DNA of 22,516 nt. It comes from a virus. The stretch is from IMG/VR virus record IMGVR_UViG_3300030103_005764, positions 44,828 through 67,343 of that record; one strand, given 5' to 3'. Position 1 is the stretch's first letter, and the number at the start of each line of letters is the position of its first letter. Shown here piece by piece: positions 5,775-21,557 of the stretch. Made by a program: the position numbers and the translations under genes. Under the pieces are notes generated by a model, which worked only from the letters and a program-made list of their open reading frames with translations, was not told the DNA's origin and ran no database searches.

Positions 5775-5957
5775 ATGAACGACAATGACCTAGAACAGAT
5801 CAACACTGTTGATGTGAATATAACAGCGGAGTCGATTGACGCCCATGTTATTTGCCTTCGAGAGAACGGATACAAGGTTCTTAAGAAATCTACAACATAC
5901 TCAAGATATCTATTATTCTTTTTATTAGGTGCCTTTTTAATGGGGAGTATTATGTGA
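5775..5957 (+). CDS. Small single-span membrane protein
   Basis: This 60-residue protein has an acidic soluble N-terminal part (MNDNDLEQINTVDVNI) and one C-terminal hydrophobic segment (about 45-60, YLLFFLLGAFLMGSIM), as in tail-anchored or stop-anchor proteins. Its end overlaps the GTG start of the large protease by four bases, so the two are probably coupled and may act together at the membrane. No family is recognised. Confidence 0.65.
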   Translation: MNDNDLEQINTVDVNITAESIDAHVICLRENGYKVLKKSTTYSRYLLFFLLGAFLMGSIM

Positions 5958-9431: not shown

Positions 9432-9895
9432 AATTTAAACTAGAATTATATGCAACAATGTGGGACACACCCCCACATGCACAAATCCTAATCAACGACA
9501 CGAAGTATTTTGATAAGGATGTGACAGGCACAGAGTCTGCTCCAGAAGTGATAGAATTTGAACATGAATGTACCGAAGGACAGAAATACGATCTGATAAT
9601 CAAACGGTCAGGTAAAACAAATAAACAAACGATAATAAACGAAAAAGGTGACATCCTTAAAGACCAACTGTTGCATATCAAATACCTAGAGATAGATGAA
9701 ATAGACCTAGGAGGTATAGTATACGAAGGAGTATATACGCCAGAATATCCAGAGCCATGGGCCTCGCAACAACGAGAAAGCGGAAGAGACTTACAGGATT
9801 CATTCAAAAATGTCACACAAATGGGTTTCAATGGTACATGGAACCTAAGTTTTGAGTCACCATTTTACGCTTGGCTTTTAGAGAACCTATACTAA
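9413..9895 (+). CDS. Conserved-type phage protein, possible carbohydrate-binding fold
   Basis: A 160-residue protein with a beta-rich N-terminal half (KLKFKLELYATMW, then TKYFDKDV and QKYDLIIKRSG). The conserved-looking C-terminus has PEYPEPWA, MGFNGTW and a final FYAWLLENLY. The beta-sandwich pattern and Trp/Tyr content recall calcium-dependent carbohydrate-binding modules (CBM60 type) found in some phage proteins, but I hold this only as a weak possibility. It overlaps the preceding gene by 19 bases, and its stop lies in the next late promoter. Confidence 0.65.
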   Translation: MATEKLKFKLELYATMWDTPPHAQILINDTKYFDKDVTGTESAPEVIEFEHECTEGQKYDLIIKRSGKTNKQTIINEKGDILKDQLLHIKYLEIDEIDLGGIVYEGVYTPEYPEPWASQQRESGRDLQDSFKNVTQMGFNGTWNLSFESPFYAWLLENLY

Positions 9896-9901
9896 TAAAT
9901 A
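9894..9901 (+). promoter_or_regulatory. T4-type late promoter octamer
   Basis: AATAAATA, overlapping the TAA (9893-9895) of the gene upstream. The ATG of the next gene is 7 bases downstream with no Shine-Dalgarno sequence. This is the first late promoter of the long block of putative head cargo genes. Confidence 0.65.
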
Positions 9902-9918
9902 TGCTTATATGAGAGCAT
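9901..9918 (+). promoter_or_regulatory. Start-codon hairpin
   Basis: ATGCT (9901-9905) pairs with AGCAT (9914-9918), with one further T-G pair (9906/9913). The ATG at 9909-9911 lies in the loop. A late transcript starting near 9908 would lack the 5' arm; a read-through transcript would contain it. Confidence 0.4.
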
Positions 9919-10265
9919 CACAATTTATAAAAGAGAACATAGACAGCGACGCAGTCAACGAACTAGATTCGTTCATTATGAACAATGAGGATCTATACCG
10001 TAGGCGTTTTATGCCCATCATATCAAATATCAAAAGAAAAGTTAAAAAAAATATCTACGATCATGAAAAAGCACAAAAACTTTGGATGTATCTAGTTGAT
10101 GATGCGGCAAAAGAGTATGTCAAAGAGTACGGATCGACACAAGACGATGTTTCGACAATGTTTCCAAAAGAGACTAGACAACAAGTTGCAAGAATAATAT
10201 CTGATAGAGAAATAGAGAATATTAAACAAGGCGAATACGATGCACCTCAGGGAACTGTTTCTTAG
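9909..10265 (+). CDS. Small putative prohead-core/internal protein with capsid targeting N-terminus
   Basis: This 118-residue, charged and largely helical protein begins MRASQFIKEN. T4 internal protein III begins MKTYQEFIAE, a capsid targeting sequence cut by gp21 protease after IAE; here IKE at 7-9 would be the matching site. The rest (RRRFMPIISNIKRKVKKNIYD) is basic and amphipathic, and no enzyme motif is visible. Late promoter and start hairpin lie directly upstream, and the end overlaps the next gene by 26 bases. That it is head-localised is inference from the N-terminus and the promoter. Confidence 0.7.
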   Translation: MRASQFIKENIDSDAVNELDSFIMNNEDLYRRRFMPIISNIKRKVKKNIYDHEKAQKLWMYLVDDAAKEYVKEYGSTQDDVSTMFPKETRQQVARIISDREIENIKQGEYDAPQGTVS

Positions 10266-11412
10266 GGAGGACGATCGTTCAACAGCAGTATTTGCCTTTG
10301 GCCGATTCAATCCACCCACAATAGGACACCAAAAATTATTAGACAAACTCGAGTCGATGGCACAGCAAGTCAACGGCAAAGCATTTCTTTTCCTTTCACA
10401 CAAACAAAACAACAAAACAGACCCACTTACTCACAGAGAAAAAACAGATTACTTGAAAATGTTCTATCCAAAATTAGCGATAGGTGATCCGGCTGTAAAA
10501 ACAATAATCCAAGCACTTCAAAAAATCCAAGCAGAAGGAAGGACAAGGCTCGTGATGGTTGCAGGATCAGATAGAGTTGCAGAATTTCAAAAATTGTTAA
10601 ATCAATACAACGGTAAACCAGACAAGCAAGGAAATGACCTTTATAAGTTTGATTACATTGATGTTGTAAGTGCAGGAGAAAGAGATCCTGATCAAGAAGG
10701 CGCATCAGGTGCCTCGGCATCAAAAGCCAGGGAACTTGCTAACAAAGGACAAGAACATGAATTTTCCAAAATAATAATGGGCGGAAATACTGGCAAAAAG
10801 TTATATGATATAATACAAGACAGGCTTGGTAAACAGATTGACGAGAACAACAAAAAGTTGTATAATGAAAACATGGAAGACGCAAAGCCAACTGTATATC
10901 TAGACATGGACGGAGTCCTAGCAGACTTCTTCGGCGGTGTTGAATTCCTTTATGGTGTTGACCATTGGAAGGAATTGACAAATGACAAAACGAAAGATTT
11001 GAAAAAACAAGTTATAGATCGTATTACAGGCACAGACTTCTTTGCAGTATTGCCTAAATTTTCAACAGCAGATGCACTTATAGATATGGTTAAAAAATTT
11101 ACAGGTGGTAAGTTTTCAATAAACACTTCACCTTTAAGAGGAGATCATGCAAACAGTGCCAAGTATAAAAAGGTGTGGATTAGCAATAATATTGAACAAC
11201 CAGATGAGGTGGTTGTAACTGGCCGTAAAGAAAGTTATGCGGTCGATAAGGGAACCGGTACTCCAAATATACTCATTGACGACAGGCCTATTAATATAGA
11301 AAAATGGCAGGCGGCTGGTGGGTACGGAATACTATATCAAGCAAACAGAGATTCACTAGACACAGTGAAGAAAGGATTAGAAGGATATGCCAAAGTTCAG
11401 CGGGATCAATAG
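10240..11412 (+). CDS. Nucleotidyltransferase / HAD 5'-nucleotidase fusion
   Basis: This 390-residue two-domain protein begins MHLRELFLRE, very like the targeting sequence of T4 Alt (MELITELFDE). Right after it comes a cytidylyltransferase/NMNAT-like domain (about 14-200) with GRFNPPTIGH (21-30, the HxGH-type nucleotide site), VAGSDRV and GASASKAR (about 157-164, in the place of ISSTxxR). The second domain (about 215-385) is HAD-type with LDMDGVLADFF (nucleophile D222, D224), a Thr/Ser motif (NTSPL) and IDDRP. It resembles 5'(3')-deoxyribonucleotidases. The halves could act in NAD, nucleotide or nucleotide-sugar metabolism; the substrate is unknown. It overlaps genes on both sides. Confidence 0.85.
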   Translation: MHLRELFLREDDRSTAVFAFGRFNPPTIGHQKLLDKLESMAQQVNGKAFLFLSHKQNNKTDPLTHREKTDYLKMFYPKLAIGDPAVKTIIQALQKIQAEGRTRLVMVAGSDRVAEFQKLLNQYNGKPDKQGNDLYKFDYIDVVSAGERDPDQEGASGASASKARELANKGQEHEFSKIIMGGNTGKKLYDIIQDRLGKQIDENNKKLYNENMEDAKPTVYLDMDGVLADFFGGVEFLYGVDHWKELTNDKTKDLKKQVIDRITGTDFFAVLPKFSTADALIDMVKKFTGGKFSINTSPLRGDHANSAKYKKVWISNNIEQPDEVVVTGRKESYAVDKGTGTPNILIDDRPINIEKWQAAGGYGILYQANRDSLDTVKKGLEGYAKVQRDQ

Positions 11413-11566
11413 ACCATACGCGGCAGGAGAAATTGAAAAAACTCCACAAGAAAAACAGCGAGAACTCGATGATAAGATGAAAGCATTCTTGGCCAAAGGC
11501 GGCAAGGTTGAAAAAGTAAAAGCACACAAACCTACCAAGCAACAGTTGAAAGACTGGACTATATAA
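11387..11566 (+). CDS. Small basic protein, 59 aa
   Basis: An ATG at 11387 inside the end of the fusion gene opens a 59-residue frame ending at TAA 11564-11566, directly before the next ATG. The product starts MPKFSGINRPYAAGEIEK and ends KQQLKDWTI; it is rich in Lys and Gln and probably helical. It fills what would otherwise be a 154-base gap, and its start and stop mesh with both neighbours. I recognise no family. Confidence 0.7.
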   Translation: MPKFSGINRPYAAGEIEKTPQEKQRELDDKMKAFLAKGGKVEKVKAHKPTKQQLKDWTI

Positions 11567-11770
11567 ATGGACATAGAAGAGTTGAAGAAATTAGCAGGTG
11601 TGGCCGAGCAATCTGAAGATTCGATGGGAGAAAATCTGTCGTACACAGGCACAGAAAAAGCACGTTATCAAAGAAAGCACAACATCAAACCAGGCACCCA
11701 AGAGTGGTTTAAATTGTGGTTTGCAAGACCTAAACTCACTGGCGAAAAGCCAATGCCAAAAAACAAATAA
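11567..11770 (+). CDS. Small conserved-type phage protein, 67 aa
   Basis: Begins [12 protein letters not shown]. The distinctive part is [20 protein letters not shown] followed by [13 protein letters not shown] associate this segment with proteins of cyanophages and other marine T4-like phages, but it has no known function. It ends in a basic PKNK. The start follows the previous stop directly and the stop lies inside the next late octamer. The N-terminus is a weaker variant of the targeting motif (Glu at 4 and 5, Leu at 6). Confidence 0.75.
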
Positions 11771-11773
11771 ATA
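11766..11773 (+). promoter_or_regulatory. T4-type late promoter octamer
   Basis: AATAAATA containing the stop (11768-11770) of the gene upstream. The superoxide dismutase ATG is 8 bases downstream. No Shine-Dalgarno sequence. Confidence 0.7.
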
Positions 11774-11788
11774 CTCGCAATATGCGAG
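11774..11788 (+). promoter_or_regulatory. Start-codon hairpin of the SOD gene
   Basis: CTCGCA (11774-11779) pairs perfectly with TGCGAG (11783-11788) around a 3-base loop. The ATG (11782-11784) is half in the loop and half in the stem. The 5' arm begins immediately after the late octamer and would be missing from transcripts that start near 11780. This is the most GC-rich of the start hairpins. Confidence 0.5.
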
Positions 11789-12336
11789 CCTTAGAATTTA
11801 CAGAAACACATTGTCCTAGAACCAAAGCAAAAGAATGTTCTTGTAGCAAGGTAAAAGGAATCACAGAAGGATTGTCCACTGTGATTGCCCAGTGCGATCT
11901 ACAACACTCCGACGAGGTAAAAGGTAGTATTTTGCTGATGCAGGCCCCAGGCACTCCAACACTAATCAAAGGCACAATTACTGGACTAACACCGGGTGAA
12001 CATGGTTTCCACATACACGAATTTGGAGACATGAGTGATGGCTGTAAATCAATGGGTGGCCACTATAATCCTGATAATGTTAATCACGGAGACAGAGACG
12101 AAGGACATGTTGGTGATCTTGGAAATATTATAGCAACAGAATCAGGCGTTGCTAATTTTTCAATAAGAGCAAACAGGGTTGACTTAATAGGCGATAGATC
12201 AGTAGTTGGAAGAGGTATAGTAGTCCATGCTGAAAAAGATGACCTAGGGTTAGGCGGCGATGAAGAAAGTTTAAAGACAGGTAACGCTGGTGACAGATTG
12301 GCTTGTGGTGTAATTACATTGAGAGATACAAAATGA
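11782..12336 (+). CDS. sodC: Cu/Zn superoxide dismutase with capsid targeting propeptide
   Basis: This 184-residue protein converts superoxide to oxygen and peroxide. All key residues are visible: copper ligands H77, H79, H94 and H149; zinc ligands H94, H102, H109 and D112; disulfide C88-C175; guiding Arg R172. Motifs are [22 protein letters not shown] and [10 protein letters not shown]. The N-terminus is not a Sec signal. It reads [10 protein letters not shown], then a Cys/Lys-rich stretch with C11, C19 and C21, ending in ITEG at 27-30, directly before the first SOD strand ([10 protein letters not shown]). ITE/G matches the T4 gp21 site (I/L)xE, so residues 1-29 look like a removable head-targeting propeptide. 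It is late-expressed and overlaps the next gene by ATGA. Confidence 0.93.
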
Positions 12337-13241
12337 AATTTTTAATTTTTAACGGAACACTGAAGCCTGACGCAGAATCAAACACTAGCAAAGTTGTAAG
12401 TATGTTGAAACTTGCATTTGAAAAATTAGGGCAAGACTGCGAAGTAATCACGATGAGAGAATTGAATTACGAAAGAGGTACTGTTGATATTAATGATGAG
12501 TTGAAACCAGAATTAATGAAAATGTTTAAGGCAGACGGCGTTGTTTTTGCAACACCTATATGGTGGAGTGGACAGAGTTCACACATTCAAGCAATTATGG
12601 AAAGAATGGATCCCATATACAACTGGTCAAAAGAAAACAAGCATCAACCTTTTTACAATAAAGTGTTTGGTTCATTGATATCGGGTGGTGGAGATGGATT
12701 CCAAAAAATACATGGCAACCTTTACAGTTTCGCATCTAACTTTGGATTCACAATAGTGCCACAGGCAAATGTAGAATCTAAGGCACAAGGCCTAGATGAA
12801 ATACTAGATGACCAAGACACTGTTGATCAAGTCAAAAACTGTGCAATTAACATGACTGCATGGGCAAGGGTTTTGAAAGAAGGCAATCCGGCAAAAGACG
12901 GTAGGCACGGTTCTGTTGATATAAATGAAGATCTTACCGAAGGCAAGAGGATACCACGTAAAAAGGGACAAAAAGCAAAGTCTAAAAAACACAGTGACCT
13001 ATACACGGATGAAGATCCAAAAGGCACTATCCATGGATTAGGATTCAAGGATGAAGCGGCGGCAAGGTCAAGTGTTGCAAAGATTAGGAAATCGGGTAGA
13101 TCACACGCACACAAAATACAAGCGGCAGTTGCCATGGAGCAGAGAGCAAGAGCGGCAGGCAAATCAGGGCCAGCGGCCATCTACAGGAAGTTTATCAACT
13201 CCATGAAGAAGAAAACCAAAGCCAAAAATAAAAAGAAATGA
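12333..13241 (+). CDS. NADPH-dependent FMN reductase/flavodoxin-like domain fused to DUF5824-like tail
   Basis: The start is ATG at 12333, overlapping the SOD stop; a longer frame from 12303 would lie inside SOD. Residues 1 to about 200 form a flavodoxin-like fold: [16 protein letters not shown] (FMN phosphate loop), FATPIWWSG and SGGGDGFQ. The rest (about 205-302) is a very basic tail with [27 protein letters not shown] and [13 protein letters not shown], ending [11 protein letters not shown]. This matches what I know of DUF5824 in marine phages. The border reads [12 protein letters not shown] fits a gp21-type site, so the domains may be separated in the prohead. It probably reduces flavin or quinone with NAD(P)H, next to a superoxide dismutase. 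Confidence 0.82.
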
Positions 13242-13456
13242 AAGCAGTAATTAAAATTATAGCAGAACACCTAGACGTTGCGGAGAGCAAGGTCACTCCA
13301 GAAGCACATTTAGTAAACGATTTAGATGCAGATTCATTTGACACAGTAGAACTGGTGATACAGGTAGAGAAAGCCACAGGCGTAAAAATATCACAGGACG
13401 ATGGTGACAAAGTGCAGACAGTACAAGATCTAATCAACCTAGTGGAAAAAAAATAA
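13238..13456 (+). CDS. acpP: Acyl carrier protein
   Basis: This 72-residue acidic four-helix protein has the phosphopantetheine attachment motif DADSFDTVEL, with S33 as the attachment site. The usual DSL is DSF here. Length, acidity and the helix II sequence (DTVELVIQVE) are typical of bacterial fatty acid ACPs. It needs a host phosphopantetheinyl transferase for activity. It overlaps the FMN reductase fusion by four bases (ATGA), inside a late operon of putative head cargo. This is an unusual setting, since no other lipid synthesis gene is visible. It could alter host fatty acid flow or act as a carrier or binding partner. Confidence 0.9.
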   Translation: MKAVIKIIAEHLDVAESKVTPEAHLVNDLDADSFDTVELVIQVEKATGVKISQDDGDKVQTVQDLINLVEKK

Positions 13457-13462
13457 AAAGAA

Positions 13463-13858
13463 ATGAAGATACGTGAGATAACAGAATACGTTACTGATTA
13501 TGTTCACGGCGATGTTGATAAAGTAATCAAAAAATTAGGTAAAAAGAAAATGCGTATGGGATATTATCCTATGATGGCATATCCATACAGAGTTAAAAAA
13601 GAAACTAAAGAAGCACCACCAGGCACTTACTTTACGAAGACAGGAAATTTGGTTAAAGGAAAATTAACAAAAGCGGCCAAAGAAAGAGGTGCAAGAGAAA
13701 CTGACCCCAAGGACAATCAAAGATCTAAAGTACCACCAGTTACACAAAGCAACGAAGCAAAAAAGTGGAGTACAAAATATAAAAAATCTATAAACTGTAA
13801 TAATCCAAAAGGATTTTCACAAAAGGCGCATTGTGCAGGTAGGAAGAAAAAGAAATGA
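13463..13858 (+). CDS. Basic protein with capsid targeting-like N-terminus and Cys/Lys tail
   Basis: This 131-residue protein begins MKIREITEYV; ITE at 6-8 fits a gp21-type cut. The middle is Lys-rich (LVKGKLTKAAKERGARE). The tail has NEAKKWSTKYKKSINCNNPK then GFSQKAHCAGRKKKK, a two-Cys basic module that I associate with marine T4-like phage proteins. No enzyme motif is visible. A DNA-packing or core role is inferred from charge and targeting motif. It starts 6 bases after the ACP gene and overlaps the next by four. Confidence 0.75.
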   Translation: MKIREITEYVTDYVHGDVDKVIKKLGKKKMRMGYYPMMAYPYRVKKETKEAPPGTYFTKTGNLVKGKLTKAAKERGARETDPKDNQRSKVPPVTQSNEAKKWSTKYKKSINCNNPKGFSQKAHCAGRKKKK

Positions 13859-14625
13859 AAATCAAAGAATTTATAATAATGCCACAAACAATTAAACCTA
13901 TGGGCCTAATACACAAACCGGGTAAAGGACCTAATAATAGATTTGATTTCAAAAACAAGGGCAACAACAAAGCAAATGAAGATGAGCATAGTCCTGATCT
14001 CAAACTACCTACCGGAAAAAAAATGATATTACAAGCAGATGACGAGGAACACACACGAGGATTAGTTGTCACTAGCAACAAAGACGGCAGTTATGACACA
14101 TACTATTGGTATCAGAATCCCAACGAGGCAATGCCTATTGAAATTAAAATAGATGGAGAATCAGTTTCCAAAGATGCTAAAAATGTGAAATGGGAATATC
14201 ATCCGGAACTGGATGAAGCAAGGGGCAGTTGTTGGCATGGATATCAACAAAAAGGCTACAAGAAAAAAGGCAACAAAATGGTGCCTAACTGTGTTAAAGA
14301 AGAAGCCGCAGGTGTTGGTATAGTAACAAAACAAAATGCAACGAAAGACGTGCCAGTTGGTGGTGAATACATGAATATTAAAAAACTACATTTAGGCAAA
14401 GGCAAGCCAAAAACAATGCGAGAAGAATTTGCCGATTTCCTGGAAAACTTTGCGGACGGTAAACGCAAAGGCAAAAGCAGGCCAGGACGTGTGAAACGTG
14501 CAGGTGCAAGTTGCAAGGGATCAGTCACATCATTAAGAAGTAAGGCAAAAAAAGCATCAGGTGAACGTGCAAAAATGTATCACTGGTGTGCCAACATGAA
14601 GTCGGGGCGAAAAAAGAAAAAATAA
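13855..14625 (+). CDS. Multi-module basic protein with capsid targeting-like N-terminus
   Basis: This 256-residue protein begins MKIKEFIIMP. A short beta-rich region (about 55-115; GLVVTSNKDGSYDTYYWY) follows. Then comes HPELDEARGSCWHGY, where LDE/A fits a gp21-type cut directly before a CW..GY...VPNCVK module (14230-14298). The same module occurs in the dehydratase fusion at 21180-21248. The tail has RPGRVKRAGASCKGSV then KASGERAKMYHWCANMKSG, ending RKKKK. The modular build and three Cys-pair elements suggest compact DNA- or metal-binding parts, but no function is established. Confidence 0.72.
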   Translation: MKIKEFIIMPQTIKPMGLIHKPGKGPNNRFDFKNKGNNKANEDEHSPDLKLPTGKKMILQADDEEHTRGLVVTSNKDGSYDTYYWYQNPNEAMPIEIKIDGESVSKDAKNVKWEYHPELDEARGSCWHGYQQKGYKKKGNKMVPNCVKEEAAGVGIVTKQNATKDVPVGGEYMNIKKLHLGKGKPKTMREEFADFLENFADGKRKGKSRPGRVKRAGASCKGSVTSLRSKAKKASGERAKMYHWCANMKSGRKKKK

Positions 14626-14628
14626 TTA
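14621..14628 (+). promoter_or_regulatory. Late promoter octamer variant
   Basis: AATAATTA, two mismatches from TATAAATA, containing the stop (14623-14625) of the gene upstream. The ATG lies 5 bases downstream. The same TAATTA form occurs at 19171-19178 with the same spacing, which supports a real variant. Confidence 0.45.
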
Positions 14629-14629
14629 C

Positions 14630-14646
14630 ACACATGCAATATGTGT
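14630..14646 (+). promoter_or_regulatory. Start-codon hairpin
   Basis: ACACAT (14630-14635) pairs perfectly with ATGTGT (14641-14646) around a 5-base loop. The ATG (14634-14636) lies at the top of the 5' arm. A transcript starting at the ATG would lose most of the 5' arm. Confidence 0.45.
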
Positions 14647-15470
14647 TACTAGTTTTTTTAGAATTCAAAAAATACAAAGAGCCTATAAACCTACAAATAT
14701 TCGCAAACAATAGGTTAATTGATGATATCGACCTTGAAGAAAGTATTTCGGTTAGAAAAAACTTTTGGTCTATGCAAGAAATGAATCAAACATTTTTGAA
14801 ATATTCTAAAGAATGTCATTACGAGTATGAATATGACCTGCCACCTACAACAGAAAACAAACATCCTCACGTATCTGAATTAGTTAACAAGGACGGCGCA
14901 CGTTTAGTTTGTCCGGAAAAATTACTTTATTACGAATTAGAAGGATCACAACTCGCTGATAACTTCACGTTCAGGATCAATGACAGCAACACAAATTACA
15001 CAAATGGCTTCATGACCAAATCTAATTTAATAAAGTTTAAATGTTTCTGTCTTTTACCAAAAAAACTATTAACACGGGACAAACTTAATAGGTTAGCGTT
15101 GATATCAAAAAAACGAAGGATAAAGAAAAAACTGCCCTATGCAGATCACGTATATCTGTATTATACTACCAATGAACTGGCATCTAGGAAAGGTGATGAC
15201 ACAGAACCTGTGCGTTGGCCAACTGCAAGGTATGAGGATTGGTATGGTGGGCAAAAAGAATTTACAATACCTTTAATAAAAAAATACGGCGTGTTGATGC
15301 TTGATCCACACAGAGATATAAGAAGTACGCCGCCAAAAAAAACCCGAGTCATTTTTGAGAGTGACTTTTTGTGTTATGCCGACTATTATGGTTTGATAAA
15401 TATTGATAATGAAAATCAACGAAGTAATCATGCGAGAACAAGCCACAGCGGGAGCCACGTCGGCAGGTAA
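14634..15470 (+). CDS. Hypothetical protein, 278 aa
   Basis: The start is ATG 14634 after the late octamer; an in-frame ATG at 14586 lies inside the gene upstream and is less likely. The protein is soluble, rich in Tyr, Leu and Lys, with a hydrophobic N-terminus (YVLLVFLEF) too short and charged for a clear membrane span. Segments worth noting are DHVYLYYTTNEL and VRWPTARYEDWYGGQKEF. No family is recognised. Its last 62 bases overlap the next gene in another frame, and that gene's promoter lies inside this coding region; the tail RSNHARTSHSGSHVGR may therefore be a by-product of the overlap. Confidence 0.72.
   Translation: MQYVLLVFLEFKKYKEPINLQIFANNRLIDDIDLEESISVRKNFWSMQEMNQTFLKYSKECHYEYEYDLPPTTENKHPHVSELVNKDGARLVCPEKLLYYELEGSQLADNFTFRINDSNTNYTNGFMTKSNLIKFKCFCLLPKKLLTRDKLNRLALISKKRRIKKKLPYADHVYLYYTTNELASRKGDDTEPVRWPTARYEDWYGGQKEFTIPLIKKYGVLMLDPHRDIRSTPPKKTRVIFESDFLCYADYYGLINIDNENQRSNHARTSHSGSHVGR
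15395..15402 (+). promoter_or_regulatory. T4-type late promoter octamer
   Basis: GATAAATA, one mismatch from consensus, inside the coding region of the gene upstream. The next ATG (15409) is 6 bases downstream. No Shine-Dalgarno sequence. Confidence 0.6.
15403..15419 (+). promoter_or_regulatory. Start-codon hairpin
   Basis: TTGAT (15403-15407) pairs with ATCAA (15415-15419), and the 7-base loop contains the ATG (15409-15411). The 5' arm starts directly after the late octamer. Confidence 0.4.
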
Positions 15471-15672
15471 CATTGCCACTGTTGTAAGTCCACACATCGC
15501 TATAGGTAGAGACAGATTCAAAAAATCATTCACAGGATCTCCAGGCAGATCAGGAACAAAAGCACCAAAATTACCAAAAATAGTGCAACCTAAAAATCCT
15601 AATGGCACTGCCAAAGGTGCCCACGCAATGCCGGGTGTAAGTTTATTTGGTGGGCCGGGGATTAAAAGATAA
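15409..15672 (+). CDS. Small basic Gly/Pro-rich protein with capsid targeting-like N-terminus
   Basis: This 87-residue protein starts at ATG 15409, giving MKINEVIMREQ; the upstream TTG at 15403 in the same frame lies in the hairpin arm and is unlikely. The length to MRE matches the 10-residue T4 targeting sequences. After it the protein is flexible and basic (RDRFKKSFTGSPGRSGTKAPK), ending MPGVSLFGGPGIKR, with no Cys or acidic cluster. It may be a DNA-coating internal protein; this is inference. The stop shares its last A with the next ATG. Confidence 0.72.
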   Translation: MKINEVIMREQATAGATSAGNIATVVSPHIAIGRDRFKKSFTGSPGRSGTKAPKLPKIVQPKNPNGTAKGAHAMPGVSLFGGPGIKR

Positions 15673-15836
15673 TGGAACCATTAGTACTCACTGACCCCAT
15701 TAAATGTGAAAATTGTGGTTGCGACAGTCATTGTGGTAAGGTTTGTAAAAGAACTGAAAAACATAGCCCTATAGACGGGTCAAACAAGTACGAAATTGAG
15801 GTTTGTAAGCACTGTCGTTGCGTAGCCTGTGCGTAA
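15672..15836 (+). CDS. Cys-rich zinc-ribbon or metallothionein-like protein, 54 aa
   Basis: A short frame from ATG 15672 (TAATG overlap with the gene before) to TAA 15834-15836 encodes 54 residues with nine Cys: CENCGCDSHCGKVC in the first half and CKHCRCVAC at the end. The spacing (CxxCxC, CxxxC, then CxxCxCxxC) suits two zinc sites or a small zinc ribbon. Small proteins of this look occur in other marine T4-like phages, as far as I recall. It could bind zinc or copper, which is of interest near a Cu/Zn SOD, but no direct link is shown. Its stop overlaps the next late octamer. Confidence 0.75.
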   Translation: MEPLVLTDPIKCENCGCDSHCGKVCKRTEKHSPIDGSNKYEIEVCKHCRCVACA

Positions 15837-15842
15837 TAAATA
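15835..15842 (+). promoter_or_regulatory. T4-type late promoter octamer
   Basis: AATAAATA overlapping the TAA (15834-15836) of the Cys-rich gene. The next ATG (15848) follows after 5 bases. No strong start hairpin is seen here. Confidence 0.65.
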
Positions 15843-15847
15843 TTGAT

Positions 15848-16420
15848 ATGAGATTCCATGAATTTAAAACAGAAGACAATTCAGACAGGGGCATGAACAA
15901 ATACGGACTTGCCGCAAGGAACAAGGACGGCAAATTCTACTCATACAGACACGGTAAACTAACAGGTACATTTGATAACATGGCTGACCTGCAGAAACAT
16001 CAACACAATTTGATAAAGGACGAATCAATCAAAGAAGGTGCTGAAATGATTGCTTACCACAAACATCCAACACAACAGAATTTGTGGACTTTCCCAGACG
16101 CATATAAAGATGACGAGGAAGTAGAGAGTCCATACATGAGCAACGCCAGTATGAGACAGTTCCTTGACGCACTTGGATACGATAGTGATTTCGAAGACAT
16201 GAGTCCAGTACCAGCAAAAGAATTTATAGCCAGAACCACGCAGTGGTTACAAAAGAACATCGGAAAAAGAAGTCCCGAAGAACCAGCAACCAGAGACGGC
16301 AACATGATATCAGGTGGCAAGCCAGAAGGTTACATGAACCAAATGGTCAAAGCACACAACGAGATAGCAAGGAAAGTTTTAGCGAAGTATCCTGAAGTCA
16401 CACACTTTGGATTTAATTAA
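15848..16420 (+). CDS. Putative internal head protein with capsid targeting-like N-terminus, 190 aa
   Basis: The start is ATG 15848 (MRFHEFKTED); an in-frame extension to 15818 would run through the promoter and is rejected. The protein has an N-terminal part (about 1-62, including KYGLAARNKDGKFYSY), then IKEG (about 61-64), which fits a gp21-type cut, then a C-terminal domain (about 65-190; SNASMRQFLDALGYDSDFED, FIARTTQWLQKNIG, HNEIARKVLAKYPE). The C-terminal domain is helical and has no known enzyme motif. The next gene starts one base after its stop. Confidence 0.72.
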   Translation: MRFHEFKTEDNSDRGMNKYGLAARNKDGKFYSYRHGKLTGTFDNMADLQKHQHNLIKDESIKEGAEMIAYHKHPTQQNLWTFPDAYKDDEEVESPYMSNASMRQFLDALGYDSDFEDMSPVPAKEFIARTTQWLQKNIGKRSPEEPATRDGNMISGGKPEGYMNQMVKAHNEIARKVLAKYPEVTHFGFN

Positions 16421-16421
16421 T

Positions 16422-18293
16422 ATGAAGATTAACGAATTACATAACCAACCAGTCAAACCAGACACATACGAGGCTTCAATGGCCTTGAACCAATTGCTTA
16501 AGATTGGTAAACATGCGATCAAGATACACAACATGATAGACGATGCGGCGGAGATGGAGTCATGGGTAGCAAAGAAGATAGACCTAGCAGGTGACTATGT
16601 GAAAAAAGTGCATGGCTACATGCAGGGCGAGAAGGCCGGACTATACGATGACGGTGGCATGACGGAATCAAGAGAACAGATCGGTGACTACGCAAGAGAA
16701 ATTAAATCAGGCAGGATCGTAAGGATAGTAGACTTCACACCAGATGAAGATGGAGACATCTACACAATCTCATACGGTGAGGATCAAGGTGAAAACGATG
16801 TCTTTGCAAAGGATTTGAAATTCCTAGATCAGACAGGCAGTGACCAAGAAGAAATCGGCAAGTTTGACGAAGACGCAGGCTCTCTCACAGATCAACAGAA
16901 AAAAGCACTAGACATGGTTCAAGCAAAGTATGGAAATCGTGTCGGTGGAAACGGTGATAGCCTACCGAAAGGTTATATGCTGATGCGATTGCAGACTGGT
17001 GTTGGTACAGATGGAATAGACGATGACGAGTTAGAAGCCGCATTAAAGAAATATGGATATGACAGTATGTACGACGCCGAACAGGCAGACGACGACTTCT
17101 TTGATAAAATTCACAACAAAGAACATTTGCCTATTACTATGAATATGATAGACGCACTGTCAGACGCGATGGGTTCAGATTTTATGGATGATAAAAAATT
17201 AGGTGATGCCTATGATTATCTTTACAATAGAGACGAATCAGTTTCAGAAGACGCAGGCGAGGGACACATGAGCAAAAGCACATTGTACCACACTGCCAAG
17301 TATGCGATAGAGTTGATGTCGATGATCAACAAGGGTGATGATCTTGAGGGTTGGGTACAGAGCAAACTTAACAAGGCCGCAGATTATCTACAGGGTGTAC
17401 ACAACTACGAAGAATATCAGAAACTTAATCCATACAGAGAAGAACTTGATTCCAGCGTATTACAAAGACACGCAGGCATAGTGCAAAAAAATATTGATGA
17501 AATATTGGCTAGAGAAACTAGCCTTGATGATGTTGATACTAAACCAGGCATGATGAGGATACTTGCCAAAAGAGTTAACGAAGTTGAGAAAAAAATGGCC
17601 AAAGAGAATAGAAAAAACACAGACGAAGCACACGGTGGCCAACACAGCACATCAGGTAGAAGCATGACCAAGGGCGAAATGAACAAGAGAGAAAAGATCG
17701 TCAAAGGCATGAAGAAGAACAAAGCAGGATTCAAGAAGAGATATGGCAAGGACGCAGAAGCAGTGATGTACGCGACTGCAACTAAAAATGCCATGAAGGA
17801 CGACGAAGCAAACGAAAGTGGAATACTGTACAGAGCAGGAGTAAAGAAATACGGCAAGGCTGGAATGAAGGCCATACAAAGTGCGGCGGGCAAAGGTGCC
17901 TCACACCAAGAGATTGGAAAGATCAAAGACAAACATCTTAAAGACGACGAACAAATGCAAGAAGGCATAAAGGACTGGGCAAAAAACCTAGCAATGGCGG
18001 GCGTAATTGTGGCAGGGTTGGCCGGAGTAGGGTCTATACAGGATGCCATAGATAGAAGTGTGCCGGCAGTGGCGGCTATGGAGAAAGCATTAGAATTGGC
18101 ACAGGATCAAGGCAATGACGAACTTGCAAATATGATTGAAAAAGACCTTTCAGCAGTCAAAGTCAGGTTGAGTTCTGGCAAGGATCTAAATTTTGTCAAA
18201 AGTATGCAGAGCAAATATAGTAAATTCATCCAAACGGAAGGACTTGCATACGAATCAAAACTGGCAATAAGACTAGAACAACAAATTAAATAA
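16422..18293 (+). CDS. Large multi-module putative prohead-core/virion protein with internal duplication
   Basis: This 623-residue protein starts at ATG 16422 (MKINELHNQP). It holds a duplicated helical module: residues 16-67 (HAIKIHNMI, ESWVAKKID, GDYVKKVHGYM) and 283-335 (YAIELMSMI, EGWVQSKLN, ADYLQGVHNYE). Between them is a very acidic region. Residues about 400-520 carry two basic modules that I associate with marine T4-like phages (KREKIVKGMKKNKAGFKKRY and LYRAGVKKYGKAGMKAIQSA). MQEG then precedes GIKDWAKNLAMAGVIVAGLAG (about 518-540), a likely membrane-active helix, and a helical end. The targeting motif, alternating charge and modular build suit a core protein processed in the prohead. 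Confidence 0.75.
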   Translation: MKINELHNQPVKPDTYEASMALNQLLKIGKHAIKIHNMIDDAAEMESWVAKKIDLAGDYVKKVHGYMQGEKAGLYDDGGMTESREQIGDYAREIKSGRIVRIVDFTPDEDGDIYTISYGEDQGENDVFAKDLKFLDQTGSDQEEIGKFDEDAGSLTDQQKKALDMVQAKYGNRVGGNGDSLPKGYMLMRLQTGVGTDGIDDDELEAALKKYGYDSMYDAEQADDDFFDKIHNKEHLPITMNMIDALSDAMGSDFMDDKKLGDAYDYLYNRDESVSEDAGEGHMSKSTLYHTAKYAIELMSMINKGDDLEGWVQSKLNKAADYLQGVHNYEEYQKLNPYREELDSSVLQRHAGIVQKNIDEILARETSLDDVDTKPGMMRILAKRVNEVEKKMAKENRKNTDEAHGGQHSTSGRSMTKGEMNKREKIVKGMKKNKAGFKKRYGKDAEAVMYATATKNAMKDDEANESGILYRAGVKKYGKAGMKAIQSAAGKGASHQEIGKIKDKHLKDDEQMQEGIKDWAKNLAMAGVIVAGLAGVGSIQDAIDRSVPAVAAMEKALELAQDQGNDELANMIEKDLSAVKVRLSSGKDLNFVKSMQSKYSKFIQTEGLAYESKLAIRLEQQIK

Positions 18294-18305
18294 ACGCAAA
18301 ACATT

Positions 18306-18313
18306 TATAAATA
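18306..18313 (+). promoter_or_regulatory. T4-type late promoter octamer (perfect consensus)
   Basis: TATAAATA, identical to the T4 late consensus, in a 26-base gap between genes. The next ATG (18320) is 6 bases downstream. A short 4-bp stem (ATAC 18311-18314, GTAT 18318-18321) touches the start codon but is weak. Confidence 0.75.
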
Positions 18314-18319
18314 CTTCGT

Positions 18320-19171
18320 ATGGCAACAAAAAAATCAGCAGACACAAGTTTTAGAGACCTAGTAGCTCGTTTAAACGCAATGAGCAATATGACTCCTGAA
18401 CAAGAGCGTTCAGAACTTATGGAAGCGGCAAACAAAGAGCCTAAAGTGTTAGATGATAAAGACATTTCATTGGCAGACATTGCCAAGTTGGCTGGAATCA
18501 AGGAATACGTAGAACAAACAAAAGTATCACCAAAGGCAGAAAAACTTGTAGAATCTATCACGCAAGAGCCAAAAACGGAATCAGTAATTACTAAAGCAAT
18601 TAAAGAAGCAGATGCCGATGAATCTTTAGCAACTTCAATTAAAAGAGAAGTAAAAGAAGCAGTAAACAGATTAGATAAAATTGCAGAATTAGAAACACAA
18701 TTAGCAGAACTAAAAGCAGAACAAAAAGAAGAGCAAACATATGATTCAAAATCATTCAGAGAAGTTGTTACAAAAGATATCGCAGAGTATGTCAAGAACG
18801 CAGAAGATTCTCAACTTGTGGAACTTTACAACACAATCTCAGACAATGAAGCAGTATACAATGAAGAACAAAAAAATATTCTTGTCAAGACTCCAGAAAC
18901 TACTGAAATCATTGCAGACGCCGAACAGGCCGAAGCACCTGCAGAAGAAGAGCAAGTAGACGAAAAAGTAGTCGATGGTGTACAAACAGACAGAAACACA
19001 TCTGAGCCACATGCAAAAGAAAAAGAAGATGACAAAGAAGCAGAAGACAAATCAGATGAAAAAGACGATGACGGTGAAGTGCCTATGCTTGACCCAGAGT
19101 TTGATGAAGGTGAAGAAGTAGAATTACCTGCAGAAGACAAATATACTAACGATTTAGATCCACAAAAATAG
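18320..19171 (+). CDS. Highly acidic coiled-coil protein, putative prohead scaffold component
   Basis: This 283-residue protein is rich in Glu, Asp, Lys and Ala. It starts MATKKSADTSFRDLVARLNA and has heptad-like helices (about 95-155; RLDKIAELETQLAELKAEQK). The tail is extremely acidic (about 200-283; EEEQVDEKVVDG, then DKEAEDKSDEKDDDGE). It has no Cys and no catalytic motif. Acidic coiled-coil proteins of this kind form the T4 prohead core (gp22, gp67). The perfect late promoter fits abundant late expression. LME/A at about 33-36 would fit a gp21-type cut. The N-terminal targeting motif seen in neighbours is absent. Confidence 0.72.
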   Translation: MATKKSADTSFRDLVARLNAMSNMTPEQERSELMEAANKEPKVLDDKDISLADIAKLAGIKEYVEQTKVSPKAEKLVESITQEPKTESVITKAIKEADADESLATSIKREVKEAVNRLDKIAELETQLAELKAEQKEEQTYDSKSFREVVTKDIAEYVKNAEDSQLVELYNTISDNEAVYNEEQKNILVKTPETTEIIADAEQAEAPAEEEQVDEKVVDGVQTDRNTSEPHAKEKEDDKEAEDKSDEKDDDGEVPMLDPEFDEGEEVELPAEDKYTNDLDPQK

Positions 19172-19178
19172 ATAATTA
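19171..19178 (+). promoter_or_regulatory. Late promoter octamer variant
   Basis: GATAATTA overlapping the TAG (19169-19171) of the gene upstream, with the next ATG 5 bases downstream. Same TAATTA form and spacing as the site at 14621. Confidence 0.45.
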
Positions 19179-19197
19179 CGTGTATGCAACTGCACGT
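19178..19197 (+). promoter_or_regulatory. Start-codon hairpin
   Basis: ACGTG (19178-19182) pairs with CACGT (19193-19197), extended by a T-G pair. The ATG (19184-19186) lies in the 8-base loop. A late transcript starting near the ATG would lack the 5' arm. Confidence 0.45.
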
Positions 19198-19825
19198 GAC
19201 AAAAAACCAATTTGATCCGCAACCTTGTTGGACCGAAAAAATAAAAACAGTTTTCGCTTGTCCTCCAAAGGAAGCAGTAGAATTGTTTGACCAGAACGGC
19301 TATGATCTAACTAAACTGGAGCAACTATACGCAGTGGCAAATGCCAGATACACAACAAAACATCGTGACAGAGAACACATCACTTTAAGACAGACATGGT
19401 TCACTGATATCAATGAACAAGATGGTCCTCATATCAATCATGCTGTTATGTTTGAACGTAAAGGCTTTTCTGGTGATGCTCTAGAACAACTTACATTATG
19501 GGCAAAAGCAGAGCCACATCTATATAAATTGGTTGCAATGAAACCTAAATGGGGGTTGGATTTCAGTATTGACTATTGCGACAAGCAGGGAAATGTGTTT
19601 GAACTATTGCATTGGGAATATGACGGTTTTGACTATAAAGAAATTGCCGATAAAAAAGCATCCATGGAGCAATTTCTGTTGAAACAGGACTGGAATGATC
19701 GTGCTAAAACTATGTTGGCACGTAAAGAAGAATGGTATCCATTAGGCTTTTTTGAACAGAGTGAATGGAAAACTAAATTTTTTGGCATTGATAAAGAACG
19801 TTTCAAAGTGGTGCTGTGGAAATAA
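19184..19825 (+). CDS. Conserved-type hypothetical protein, 213 aa
   Basis: A soluble, Trp- and Tyr-rich protein starting MQLHVTKNQFDPQPCW. Segments include TKHRDREHITLRQTWFTD, WGLDFSIDYCD and FELLHWEYDGFDY, and it ends RFKVVLWK. The mixed charge and many aromatic residues suggest a compact globular fold. No catalytic motif or membrane segment is recognised. It has a late promoter and start hairpin of its own, and its stop lies in the next octamer. It has neither the targeting N-terminus nor a basic Cys tail, so it may not belong to the head cargo. Confidence 0.75.
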   Translation: MQLHVTKNQFDPQPCWTEKIKTVFACPPKEAVELFDQNGYDLTKLEQLYAVANARYTTKHRDREHITLRQTWFTDINEQDGPHINHAVMFERKGFSGDALEQLTLWAKAEPHLYKLVAMKPKWGLDFSIDYCDKQGNVFELLHWEYDGFDYKEIADKKASMEQFLLKQDWNDRAKTMLARKEEWYPLGFFEQSEWKTKFFGIDKERFKVVLWK

Positions 19826-19828
19826 ATA
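19821..19828 (+). promoter_or_regulatory. T4-type late promoter octamer
   Basis: AATAAATA containing the stop (19823-19825) of the gene upstream. The next ATG (19835) is 6 bases downstream. No convincing start hairpin. Confidence 0.65.
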
Positions 19829-19834
19829 CGTAAA

Positions 19835-20614
19835 ATGAGTCAAATACCTTACAACTACGGCAAATACGTTGATGACACAGTAAGACTGCGTGATCAAGGG
19901 CATGTAGACGCTGGAAAACAAGTAAAGTCACCAGCAAGTGCAGGCAGTAGAGGCTTAAATAAAACTATTAACTTTACAAAAGACGCAACACAAATGAAGA
20001 TGGGGGAATCAATCACTATGGAAGACATGAAATCTTTAATAAGCAGAATAGATGGGTTGAACGTCCCAACTGATGAAGCAAAATCAGGAATCGAAGATCA
20101 TGATTACAAATTACTAATGTTAGACATCTCCGCTATGAAAGATAGAATAGCAGAACTAAACATCGACGATGACTCAAAGACAAGAGCACTTACGGCGTTG
20201 GGAGATGTTGAAGACGAATTAAACTTTGACGAAGCATACGAACCGTTCCCAGAAGAAGACGAGATGACTTTCGAGGACGATGATGCGTTCTACGAAGCGT
20301 TTGGTGAACTTGGTTTCCCAGAAGACGAGACGGAATTGTTTGACGCAGAGTACAGAGGACGTAAGGTACCGCTTAATAAACCAATGCGTGGTGATGTAAA
20401 AAAATTCAAAGTGTACGTTAAAGATCCAAAATCCGGAAACGTGAAAAAAGTAAACTTCGGACACGGTGGAAGTTCAGCAAGAAAAGCCGGACAGAAGACA
20501 ATGAAGATCAGAAAGTCAAATCCTAAGGCAAGAAAAAGTTTTAGAGCAAGACACAACTGTGCAAACCCAGGACCAAAAACAAAAGCAAGATATTGGAGTT
20601 GTAGGAAATGGTAA
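19835..20614 (+). CDS. Acidic-middle, basic-tail phage core-type protein
   Basis: This 259-residue protein has a mixed N-terminus (MSQIPYNYGKYVDDTVRL), a helical region, a very acidic stretch (about 125-170; EPFPEEDEMTFEDDDAFYEA) and a basic C-terminal module (about 172-259). The module includes EYRGRKVPLNKPMRGDVKKF, KVNFGHGG, KSFRARHNC and a final KTKARYWSCRKW. I know this module from the ends of marine phage structural or core proteins, where one Cys follows RHN and another lies in WSC. The acid-to-base layout would let it bridge core and DNA. The start lacks the targeting motif. It overlaps the next gene by 7 bases. Confidence 0.75.
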   Translation: MSQIPYNYGKYVDDTVRLRDQGHVDAGKQVKSPASAGSRGLNKTINFTKDATQMKMGESITMEDMKSLISRIDGLNVPTDEAKSGIEDHDYKLLMLDISAMKDRIAELNIDDDSKTRALTALGDVEDELNFDEAYEPFPEEDEMTFEDDDAFYEAFGELGFPEDETELFDAEYRGRKVPLNKPMRGDVKKFKVYVKDPKSGNVKKVNFGHGGSSARKAGQKTMKIRKSNPKARKSFRARHNCANPGPKTKARYWSCRKW

Positions 20615-20799
20615 AGGTACTTGAAGTTGTTGGAGTAACATTAGAAGAGTTTGAAAAACTAGCAGAAAAGAAAGATGCCTGCTATCACAAAGTTAGATCA
20701 AGATACAAAGTTTGGCCTTCGGCTTACGCCTCTGGTGCTCTAGTTCAGTGTCGGAAAAAAGGCGCGGCTAATTGGGGCAACAAGAGTAAGAAGAAATGA
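20608..20799 (+). CDS. DUF5872-like small basic protein
   Basis: This 63-residue protein consists of a short N-terminus (MVKVLEVVGVTLEEFEKLAE) and the module KKDACYHKVRSRYKVWPSAY then ASGALVQCRKKGAANWGNKS, ending KKK. The pair of Cys, the YKVWPSAYASGALV core and the Lys-rich end match DUF5872 as I know it from phages and large DNA viruses. Function is unknown; the charge suggests nucleic acid contact. It overlaps both neighbours (7 and 4 bases). Confidence 0.8.
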   Translation: MVKVLEVVGVTLEEFEKLAEKKDACYHKVRSRYKVWPSAYASGALVQCRKKGAANWGNKSKKK

Positions 20800-21557
20800 A
20801 GATAAACGAACTGAACGAATCACCAGACAGAGAATATGTAAATCTTCCAAAAGAGGATATTGAAAGACTAAGGCAAAAATTCCTGCCTGACTGGGAATAC
20901 AAGGATAACAGTCTGCAGAAAAGATTCAAGTTTGAGGATTACTTTGAGGTAATCGAATATCTTATTAACACTATCAAGCCACAAGAGAAGTTAGATCACC
21001 ATGCAGACCTTGGAGTATTTTTCGATGAGGTGCTAGTAAAAGTTTACACACATAGAACCAAAGACGTTACAGATTACGATTTTATGGTTGCCATGCAAAT
21101 GGACATGATTGCAAAAATGAAACACGGTGCAATAAATCCAAATTACGATCTTAACGCACTAGTGGACGAAGGCACAAGATGCTGGAAAGGATACGTGAAG
21201 AAAGGCATGAAGACCATGTTTGGCAAGAGAGTGCCTAACTGTGTCAAGAGAGAGCACGTTGACTTTTGTGTAAACTGTGGAGGTATAGTTTTACACGAAT
21301 CTCTAAATGAAAATCTTAAAAAATGGTTCAAACAAAAATGGGTAAGGATGGGACCAAAAGGAAAGATTAGAGGTGCCTGTGGAGGCAAAAGCAAAGGTGA
21401 AGGTAAACCAAAATGCTTACCACTTGCAAAAGCAAGAGCACTGGGCAAAAAAGGCAGGGCAAGTGCGGCACGTAGGAAGAGAAGAAAAGATCCAAATCCA
21501 AACAGGCGTGGTAAAGCAATCAACGTCAATACCAAAAAGAAAAAAGCCAAAAAATAA
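20796..21557 (+). CDS. Pterin-4a-carbinolamine dehydratase with capsid targeting N-terminus and basic Cys tail
   Basis: This 253-residue protein begins MKINELNESP; LNE/S at 6-8 fits a gp21-type cut. Residues about 12-108 form a pterin-4a-carbinolamine dehydratase (PCD/DCoH) domain: FLPDWEY, RFKFEDYFEVIEYL, EKLDHHAD with H68 and H69, TH with H86 and D95. The His spacing (H69 to H86, 17 residues) equals that of DCoH (H62 to H79). The enzyme recycles oxidised pterin cofactor, and PCD genes are known in cyanophages. The tail carries CW..GY...VPNCVK (21180-21248), FCVNCGG, then a long Lys/Arg-rich end (KPKCLPLAKARALGKKGRAS and a final KKKKAKK). The tail could hold the enzyme on packaged DNA. Confidence 0.85.
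   Translation: MKINELNESPDREYVNLPKEDIERLRQKFLPDWEYKDNSLQKRFKFEDYFEVIEYLINTIKPQEKLDHHADLGVFFDEVLVKVYTHRTKDVTDYDFMVAMQMDMIAKMKHGAINPNYDLNALVDEGTRCWKGYVKKGMKTMFGKRVPNCVKREHVDFCVNCGGIVLHESLNENLKKWFKQKWVRMGPKGKIRGACGGKSKGEGKPKCLPLAKARALGKKGRASAARRKRRKDPNPNRRGKAINVNTKKKKAKK

Follow-up and report, generated by a model that had tools for sequence, protein, structure and literature searches.

The DNA considered here is a stretch of 22,516 nucleotides (the window, meaning this stretch at its full length) that makes up bases 44828-67343 of a 67,343-base IMG/VR virus fragment. Between positions 9909 and 21557 it carries nine genes whose otherwise different products start with a similar six-residue peptide, called the tag below, that may address them to the phage head. 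The fragment belongs to a group of large marine T4-like phages, whose DNA polymerase and Clp are 42-51% identical to those of Sinorhizobium phage Phosso and Agrobacterium phage Atu_ph07.

A short N-terminal peptide shared by nine genes

Genes are named by the position of their first base. The preliminary description of the window had listed open reading frames (ORFs) at 9909, 10240, 11782, 13463, 13855, 15409, 15848, 16422 and 20796, starting with MRASQF, MHLREL, MRALEF, MKIREI, MKIKEF, MKINEV, MRFHEF, MKINEL and MKINEL. All nine are present, and its statement that Ile3 is coded by ATA, ATC and ATT and Glu5 by GAA and GAG is correct. Gene starts were placed at the first acceptable ATG, a rule blind to the motif; small ORFs were missed. 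The limits of the gene block around the tagged genes were drawn from synteny, after the positions of the hits were already visible. The pattern searched for was M[KRH]..[EQ][AFILMVWY] (basic residue 2, Glu or Gln at 5, hydrophobic residue 6). Because this pattern came from the window, only relatives count as an independent test. These were collected in three viral-contig searches (the longest has 196,581 bases), and five were taken whole: G001 (196 kb), G002 (172 kb), G003 (139 kb), G004 (101 kb) and G005 (89 kb).

In the record of origin, 9 of the 16 called block genes fit the pattern vs 0 of 44 elsewhere (Fisher 7.7e-7), and among the ORFs listed by hand between 8905 and 22152 the tagged share is 9/24. 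Spread of the motif among related genomes, a point raised in the preliminary description, was found as well: enrichment in the block is repeated in G001 (7/19 vs 2/181 in the rest; Fisher 7.1e-7), G003 (4/10 vs 2/100; 5e-4) and G005 (7/12 vs 0/43; 3.9e-6), and is weak in G002 (2/14 vs 2/144; 0.04). One of the two G002 matches outside the block is the superoxide dismutase (SOD) gene, relocated there yet still tagged. The background of the pattern in 514 non-block genes is 1.4%, with 0.7% expected if positions were independent. A pattern-free test, setting the mean BLOSUM62 similarity among block proteins against 3000 random draws, confined the likeness to residues 2-7, where draws as high numbered 0 in the own record, 1 in G001, 21 in G003 and 0 in G005; later six-residue blocks were mostly ordinary (lowest count 65 of 3000, G005 residues 14-19). 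When eight families are given equal weight, residue 2 is K or R in 75%, residue 3 is I, A, L or F (with the weakly hydrophobic Ala in 27%), residue 4 is variable, residue 5 is Glu in 78% and Gln in 11%, and residue 6 is F, L, V or I. A short N-terminal peptide is thus common to otherwise different proteins, chance being excluded by the enrichment and by the pattern-free test. To call the proteins unrelated, as had been done, is slightly too strong: the products differ otherwise, but some of the nine share C-terminal modules.

Matches outside the block are few. One of the two in G001 lies beside the portal gene. The others include MRYKEI in G001 (55439-55885) and G003 (112764-113207), away from the portal in both, and MRFTEF in G002 (16999-17355), each representing either chance or a further tagged protein. 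The possibility that early replication proteins carry the motif equally often had been named as a refutation; none of the seven outside-block matches in G001-G005 is a recognised replication gene, in genomes where not every gene is annotated.

Selection on the tag was assessed family by family as the ratio of nonsynonymous to synonymous polymorphism (pN/pS) in codons 2-6 vs later codons. Tag codons are more constrained in 15409 (0.06 vs 0.21), 16422 (0.13 vs 0.20, from four sequences) and 13855 (0.21 vs 0.53), and in SOD position 5 alone is strict (0.06). The earlier claim that selection acts on the peptide and not on the DNA stands for these three families and for Glu5 of SOD; it does not extend to the whole tag of 9909, 10240 and SOD.

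To judge by the sequences compared, the tag behaves like a detachable module. Some relatives of 15848 are without the whole middle domain, and the tag is joined directly to the conserved C-terminal domain (MRAQEFIRE/GAEM, the slash here and below marking a known or predicted cut), an arrangement close to the N-terminus of T4 IPIII (MKTYQEFIAE/A). The SOD of one relative (L052) bears the N-terminus of the 13855 family, and the C-terminal domain of the 19835 protein, untagged in the window, is directly tagged (MKINEI) in G001. In structure models the tag has low confidence, with a mean predicted local distance difference test score over residues 1-10 of 48 for 9909 and 37 for 15848; no PDB match with E below 1 was obtained with either model.

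Predicted junctions behind the tag, late elements and a capsid-like segment

Protease-type junctions were scored in 9909, 10240 and 20796 as [IL]xE with Glu at residues 7-12, a combination present in 41 of 514 non-block genes (8%). Family counts refer throughout to distinct sequences, not to independent lineages, and were also made after clustering at 90% identity. The junction occurs in 12 of 13 distinct tagged relatives of 9909 (10/13 clusters), in all 19 relatives of 10240 as LxE at residues 8-10 (14/14 clusters) and in 9 of 11 distinct tagged relatives of 20796. E9 of 9909 is invariant in 17/17 aligned sequences, the window counted, with residue 8 variable. In 15848, Glu-Gly-Ala is invariant in 18/18 aligned sequences and the third residue before the cut (P3) is I or L in 14, V in 3 and M in 1; in the model of this protein, confidence falls again at residues 57-62, just ahead of E63/G64. 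In 15409, Glu precedes the segment described below in 15/15 sequences, with P3 being I in 5, V in 6, M in 3 and N in 1.

The product of 11782 is, by our reading, a SOD of the SOD1 type. Its metal-site motifs are present (HIH at 77, GCKSMGGH at 87, one at 102, VVHAEKDD at 147 and RLACG at 172). After a Cys-rich pro-region, [ILM]xE followed by A, G, Q, S or D is found in 36 of 37 relatives (21/22 clusters), the single exception being a truncated gene call, and the distance from site to enzyme is constant in 35/36. The junction, E29/G30, just precedes the start of alignments with SOD chains in PDB (residue 36 on chain residue 4-5). Between tag and site, the pro-region (11782-11868 and relatives) has the motif C-[PK]-R-T-x-A-x-x-C-x-C in 36/37 relatives, which resembles the CxC motif used for copper transfer by the chaperone of SOD1 and would be removed together with the tag.

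Trimming after (I/L)xE, as put forward in the preliminary description, agrees with the junctions of 9909, 10240, SOD, 15848 and 20796 and more loosely with that of 15409; it finds no counterpart in 13463, 13855 and 16422. With five families carrying an (I/L)xE-type junction and a sixth a looser one, trimming is likely in five or six of the nine families, not in all.

Late promoters provide information about timing. When the octamers ahead of G001 genes were counted de novo, AATAAATA ranked top. Of 200 G001 starts, 30 have the T4-type late element ATAAATA no more than 60 bases away, vs about one expected. These comprise 6/19 block genes and 24/181 elsewhere (4/10 and 13/100 in G003), and the G001 genes with the element outside the block are, by our reading, largely structural. 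Within the window, ATAAATA precedes 5128, 9909, 11782, 15409, 15848, 18320 and 19835 by 12-15 bases. Few or none of the relatives have it before 9413 (0/15), 10240 (0/19), 11567 (0/6), 12333 (0/18), 13855 (2/11), 16422 (0/6), 20796 (1/13) and 21611 (0/19), and tagged genes without an element of their own may be expressed by read-through. Production of some members late in infection, as these elements suggest, would suit cargo of the head and argue against enzymes directed at the host early on. The elements lie 12-17 bases before the ATG in 15/30 cases in G001, 9/17 in G003 and 9/17 in G002. With the spacing of T4, transcription would start at or next to such an ATG, and late mRNAs would be nearly leaderless if that spacing holds; the mean Shine-Dalgarno score is somewhat lower in genes with a late element (1.5 vs 2.0).

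The small tagged protein 15409 contains a segment resembling the major capsid protein. Its residues 8-25, MREQATAGATSAGNIATV, are identical at 14/18 positions to residues 39-56 of G001 gp23, which span the LSE/Q junction of gp23, and it is inferred that the G001 capsid protein is cut at this LSE. The comparison scores 72 vs a maximum of 60 in 1000 shuffles and is the top one among 199 G001 proteins. A search of 50,697 GenBank phage records with 15409 gave 15 weak matches (E 0.2-0.6), all over residues 6-25 and in large phages, 11 carrying the annotation of a major head or capsid protein and 4 that of a hypothetical protein. The T4 protein gp61.1 (NC_000866 18966-19130, locus L148) is itself tagged (MKTFKEFIKE/D) and can be aligned with residues 56-93 of T4 gp23, a stretch that includes the cleavage after residue 65 (score 82, 0/2000 shuffles as high, top of 213 T4 proteins). 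S-SM1 has an untagged protein, SSM1_197, with the annotation major head protein; its likeness to S-SM1 gp23 covers that same region (score 62, 0/1000 shuffles). Each of the three matches the gp23 of its own group (this clade, T4, S-SM1) and not the others. Such a preference was not seen inside Straboviridae, where six 61.1 proteins resemble all six gp23s (scores 68-115); this comparison left out Asswx_1, which has no usable gp23 stretch. HTVC008M gp143 was rejected as a further copy (score 44, 19/1000 shuffles as high, off the junction). Elsewhere in Straboviridae the gp23-like segment stands at the C-terminus of a longer protein in 6/7, and the KPN6 protein is short and tagged like that of T4. 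No description of the 61.1-gp23 resemblance was found among the matches listed in a search of largely open-access papers. A packaged copy of the junction may occupy sites of the capsid N-arm on the inner shell or serve as a protease substrate.

Table 1. Tagged genes, predicted sites, late elements and neighbouring genes (positions in the window; a fraction gives the relatives that have the element)
Feature	Positions	Strand	Remarks
Tagged 118-residue protein, MRASQFIKE/N, predicted helical	9909..10265	+	
Predicted prohead-protease site I-K-E/N of 9909	9927..9935	+	
Tagged cytidylyltransferase-like and 5'-nucleotidase-like enzyme, MHLRELFLRE/D	10240..11412	+	phrog_3041 3.3e-52, phrog_2643 8.5e-25, PF01467
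Predicted protease site L-R-E/D of 10240	10261..10269	+	
Tagged putative Cu/Zn SOD: tag, Cys-rich pro-region, enzyme	11782..12336	+	PF00080 1.4e-44
Predicted protease site I-T-E/G, residues 27-29, just ahead of SOD fold	11860..11868	+	
Untagged FMN-reductase-like protein, basic tail	12333..13241	+	Possible cargo partner
Tagged basic 131-residue protein, MKIREITE, Lys-rich tail with Cys	13463..13858	+	
Tagged basic 256-residue protein, MKIKEF, CWxGY and K/R-rich Cys modules	13855..14625	+	
Tagged 87-residue protein with copy of major capsid protein cleavage-junction segment	15409..15672	+	
Capsid-protein-like segment, residues 8-25 of 15409, MRE/QATAGATSAGNIATV	15430..15483	+	
Tagged 190-residue protein, MRFHEF: variable pro-domain, then conserved C-terminal domain	15848..16420	+	
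Predicted protease site I-K-E/G, residues 61-63, at domain boundary of 15848	16028..16036	+	
Tagged 623-residue protein, MKINEL, no conserved second site	16422..18293	+	
Untagged, very acidic protein (net -40), IAKLAGI motif	18320..19171	+	Possible core partner
Protein untagged in the window, C-terminal domain tagged in G001	19835..20614	+	
Tagged pterin-4a-carbinolamine-dehydratase-like domain, CWKGY, K/R-rich tail (net +18, last 40 residues)	20796..21557	+	PF01329 6.5e-14
Predicted protease site L-N-E/S of 20796	20811..20819	+	
Late element ATAAATA before 9909	9895..9901	+	14 bases ahead of ATG; 14/18
Late element ATAAATA before SOD gene 11782	11767..11773	+	19/29
Late element ATAAATA before 15409	15396..15402	+	9/14
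Late element ATAAATA before 15848	15836..15842	+	7/10
Late element before 18320	18307-18313		22/24
Late element before 19835	19822-19828		23/24

Among the other genes of the window (Table 1), the enzyme encoded by 10240 is 34-44% identical to cyanophage and HTVC008M proteins among the matches listed. The untagged FMN-reductase-like gene is followed by an acyl-carrier-protein-like gene (13238-13456), and the tail of its G001 relative is common to the tagged 13855 protein. In G001, 3 of 19 block proteins vs 0 of 178 others end in a strongly basic stretch (net charge at least +10 over the final 40 residues), a feature that would suit internal proteins bound to DNA. The motif [ILVMF]..LAG[ILV] is shared by the protein at the scaffold position, some block proteins and a small number of further genes (18320-19171, 11567-11770; G001 62525-63589, 156047-156283); it is possibly a second core-binding motif, although it also occurs elsewhere. 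Upstream, 5954-8905 encodes a protein with a lipoprotein-type signal (LTACGGGG, identified by eye), a subtilase domain (Pfam S8, 5.7e-26) and a long C-terminal region, which by our reading may be autotransporter-like; proteins with this type of N-terminus stand at corresponding places in G001 and G005.

Proposed capsid targeting and its alternatives

A link to the head comes from the relatives. A gp21-type protease was found in 3/7 records (G001, G003 and G004) and a gp23-type capsid protein in 2/7 (G001 and G003). In the three relatives found with the region, an 80-residue protein directly beside the portal gene carries the tag (MKLMEF in G001 and G003, MKLFEF in G004). This is the place of gene 67 in T4, whose product likewise has 80 residues, and from position and length the tagged protein is taken to be a component of the prohead core. 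Entry of the tagged proteins into the prohead core, as originally proposed, is well supported, the same tag standing on this protein in all three genomes.

The favoured explanation, with a probability of about 0.82, is that the six residues at the front of these proteins serve as a capsid-targeting tag like that of T4, and that the proteins behind it are packaged, mostly trimmed and delivered with the DNA. The best reading of the sequences is a clade-specific capsid-targeting system with a shorter register than in T4 and an enlarged, modular enzyme cargo. Under this proposal, the tagged proteins would be made late in infection, at least partly from T4-type late promoters; the tag would bind the scaffold core of the prohead, so that they become enclosed during capsid assembly; and a gp21-type protease would cut most of them after (I/L)xE, between the tag or pro-region and the mature protein. 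Mature proteins, some with Lys/Arg-rich tails of a DNA-binding-like kind, would stay beside the packaged DNA inside the head and pass into the next host together with it. The cargo would include Cu/Zn SOD, the cytidylyltransferase/nucleotidase, the pterin-dehydratase-like protein and the capsid-junction copy. The tag, its concentration in the block and its presence at the core position, the protease-type junctions, the late elements and the capsid-segment copy can all be read from the DNA; from them we infer core binding, actual cleavage and presence in virions, and injection is likely by analogy only.

Other explanations of the shared N-terminus have to be weighed. The tag could send proteins to another late structure, such as the baseplate, the tail, a membrane or a replication compartment. 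The pattern-fitting MRYKEI of G001 stands among genes that we read as tail-type, and the block of this genome does not adjoin its head genes, as such a destination might lead one to expect. It is nevertheless improbable, since the core-gene position bears the tag, protease-type junctions come after it, 15409 copies a capsid junction, and T4 gp24, a head protein, shares the N-terminal letters KINEL. It is also quite improbable that the products are ordinary infection enzymes acting in the producing cell, with the N-terminus as a helical cap or stability signal: late elements stand ahead of four tagged genes, no recognised replication gene has such an N-terminus, the protease-type junctions are conserved, and a cyanophage cytidylyltransferase has been reported in virions (PMC3037559). 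This auxiliary metabolism would nonetheless agree with SOD, dehydratase, nucleotidyltransferase and acyl carrier protein being typical auxiliary genes, and with the tagged genes that have no late element of their own.

Least probable, and very improbable indeed, is a nucleotide element at the start codons (an overlap of translation or promoter signals) or a trace of recent duplication instead of a peptide signal. Late elements end a few bases ahead of several ATGs, and synonymous change in the tag codons of 9909 and 10240 is low. On the other hand, in 15409, 16422 and 13855 and at Glu5 of SOD the residues are kept with free change among synonymous codons, tag position 4 is free with position 5 mostly Glu, and chance is excluded by the enrichment and BLOSUM62 tests.

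Several observations weigh against capsid targeting in the form proposed. Head genes lie outside the 67-kb fragment itself and are known from relatives only, and in G001 the block is far from them. Two further kinds of match, MRYKEI (G001, G003) and MRFTEF (G002), stand outside the block. Tag codons are not more constrained than later ones in 9909 (pN/pS 0.33 vs 0.17), 10240 (0.51 vs 0.32) and SOD (0.54 vs 0.33). The families of 13463, 13855 and 16422 have no conserved second site, merely IxE inside the tag, and P3 of 15409 is mostly V or M instead of I or L. In the window, five of the tagged genes (10240, 13463, 13855, 16422 and 20796) lack their own late element. Strongly basic ends are found in 6/24 ORFs of the window, just three of these tagged. 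Outside the clade, the pattern derived from the window matched no known tagged protein in about 150 of the 169 kb of T4 and nothing in HTVC008M or S-SM1, and a pattern in the T4 register is not enriched at the matching locus of S-SM1 (1/12 vs 4/127).

If capsid targeting is nevertheless accepted, its meaning might reach further, although what follows is tentative and stands at somewhat less than an even chance. Widespread large T4-like phages of the sea might arm their virions with a set of enzymes (Cu/Zn SOD, nucleotide enzymes, a pterin enzyme) and DNA-binding proteins through an exchangeable six-residue address and release by protease. One member, like T4 gp61.1, would be a tagged capsid-junction copy. 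It could occupy the sites of capsid N-arms along the inside of the shell, or be a substrate of the protease or its timer, and injected SOD would defuse an oxidative burst or protect DNA in the first minutes of infection. The capsid targeting sequence of T4 is described as defined on three internal proteins, and general loading of varied proteins by T4-like phages has been suggested in a review (PMC9026906). Here the tag appears as a loading code that can move between domains and be recognised in sequence, which would make the set of proteins injected by uncultured phages predictable. SOD as head cargo would, if true, be a new kind of injected phage protein as far as is known, and the likeness of small tagged proteins (T4 61.1, 15409) to their own capsid junction would connect the loading of cargo with the maturation of the shell in a way that can be tested.

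Relation to T4 and other virions

The T4 internal proteins IPI, IPII and IPIII resemble the set in the window in having about ten N-terminal residues with a basic residue 2, two hydrophobic residues three apart and (I/L)xE, followed by varied proteins; in IPIII, targeting involves residues 4 and 7, and processing residues 8 and 10 (PMC9026906). Tags of the window match the targeting residues at 3 and 6, and 9909 also the processing residues at 7 and 9, in each case one residue earlier. The description of the tag as T4-like is therefore right for the hydrophobic targeting residues, with an offset of one, but the tag is one residue shorter than those of the T4 internal proteins. It also differs in Glu or Gln at 5 with a hydrophobic residue at 6, and in cargo that is more numerous and larger and includes enzymes; some proteins have a pro-domain between tag and cut, and three families are without a visible cut site beyond the tag.

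In HTVC008M, a pattern in the T4 register is commoner at the corresponding locus (4/19) than elsewhere (3/160). As a general detector it was rejected; it is loose, because 9/214 called T4 genes match, with only three known internal proteins and 61.1 among them. For Atu_ph07, a virion proteome of 131 proteins has been described (PMC6102473); its 50-kb region with ClpA and DNA polymerase gave no match to the pattern of the window and three chance-like matches in the T4 register.

Enzymes in virions have precedents. Purified S-SM1 virions contain the putative cytidylyltransferase T4-GC190, as detected by mass spectrometry by Sullivan et al. (PMC3037559). It is the same kind of enzyme as 10240, and its gene, SSM1_190, starts with MKKFSAFLNE/A, in the T4 register, unlike 10240. 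Cu/Zn SOD is reported as carried in the virion of PBCV-1, as is proposed here (PMC7019647). PBCV-1 infects algae. To our knowledge, neither a tag nor protease processing is known for its SOD. Among the matches listed in the search of largely open-access papers, there were no such tags in marine phages and no packaged phage SOD.

The closest T4 N-terminus to the tags of the window is that of gp24, MAKINELLRE/S, the first ten residues of which are described as removed by the prohead protease (PMC9958956). KINEL and LRE are letters of the tags; gp24 differs in being a vertex shell protein, and beyond the N-terminus no likeness to it is known for the nine proteins. As for gp61.1 and 15409, their letters differ, each resembling the gp23 of its own group; gp61.1 adjoins the primase gene 61, no primase being recognised among the window neighbours of 15409, and in several other Straboviridae it is longer with a different N-terminus. 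What the two have in common is that each is a small tagged protein with a segment like its own gp23 across the cleavage site.

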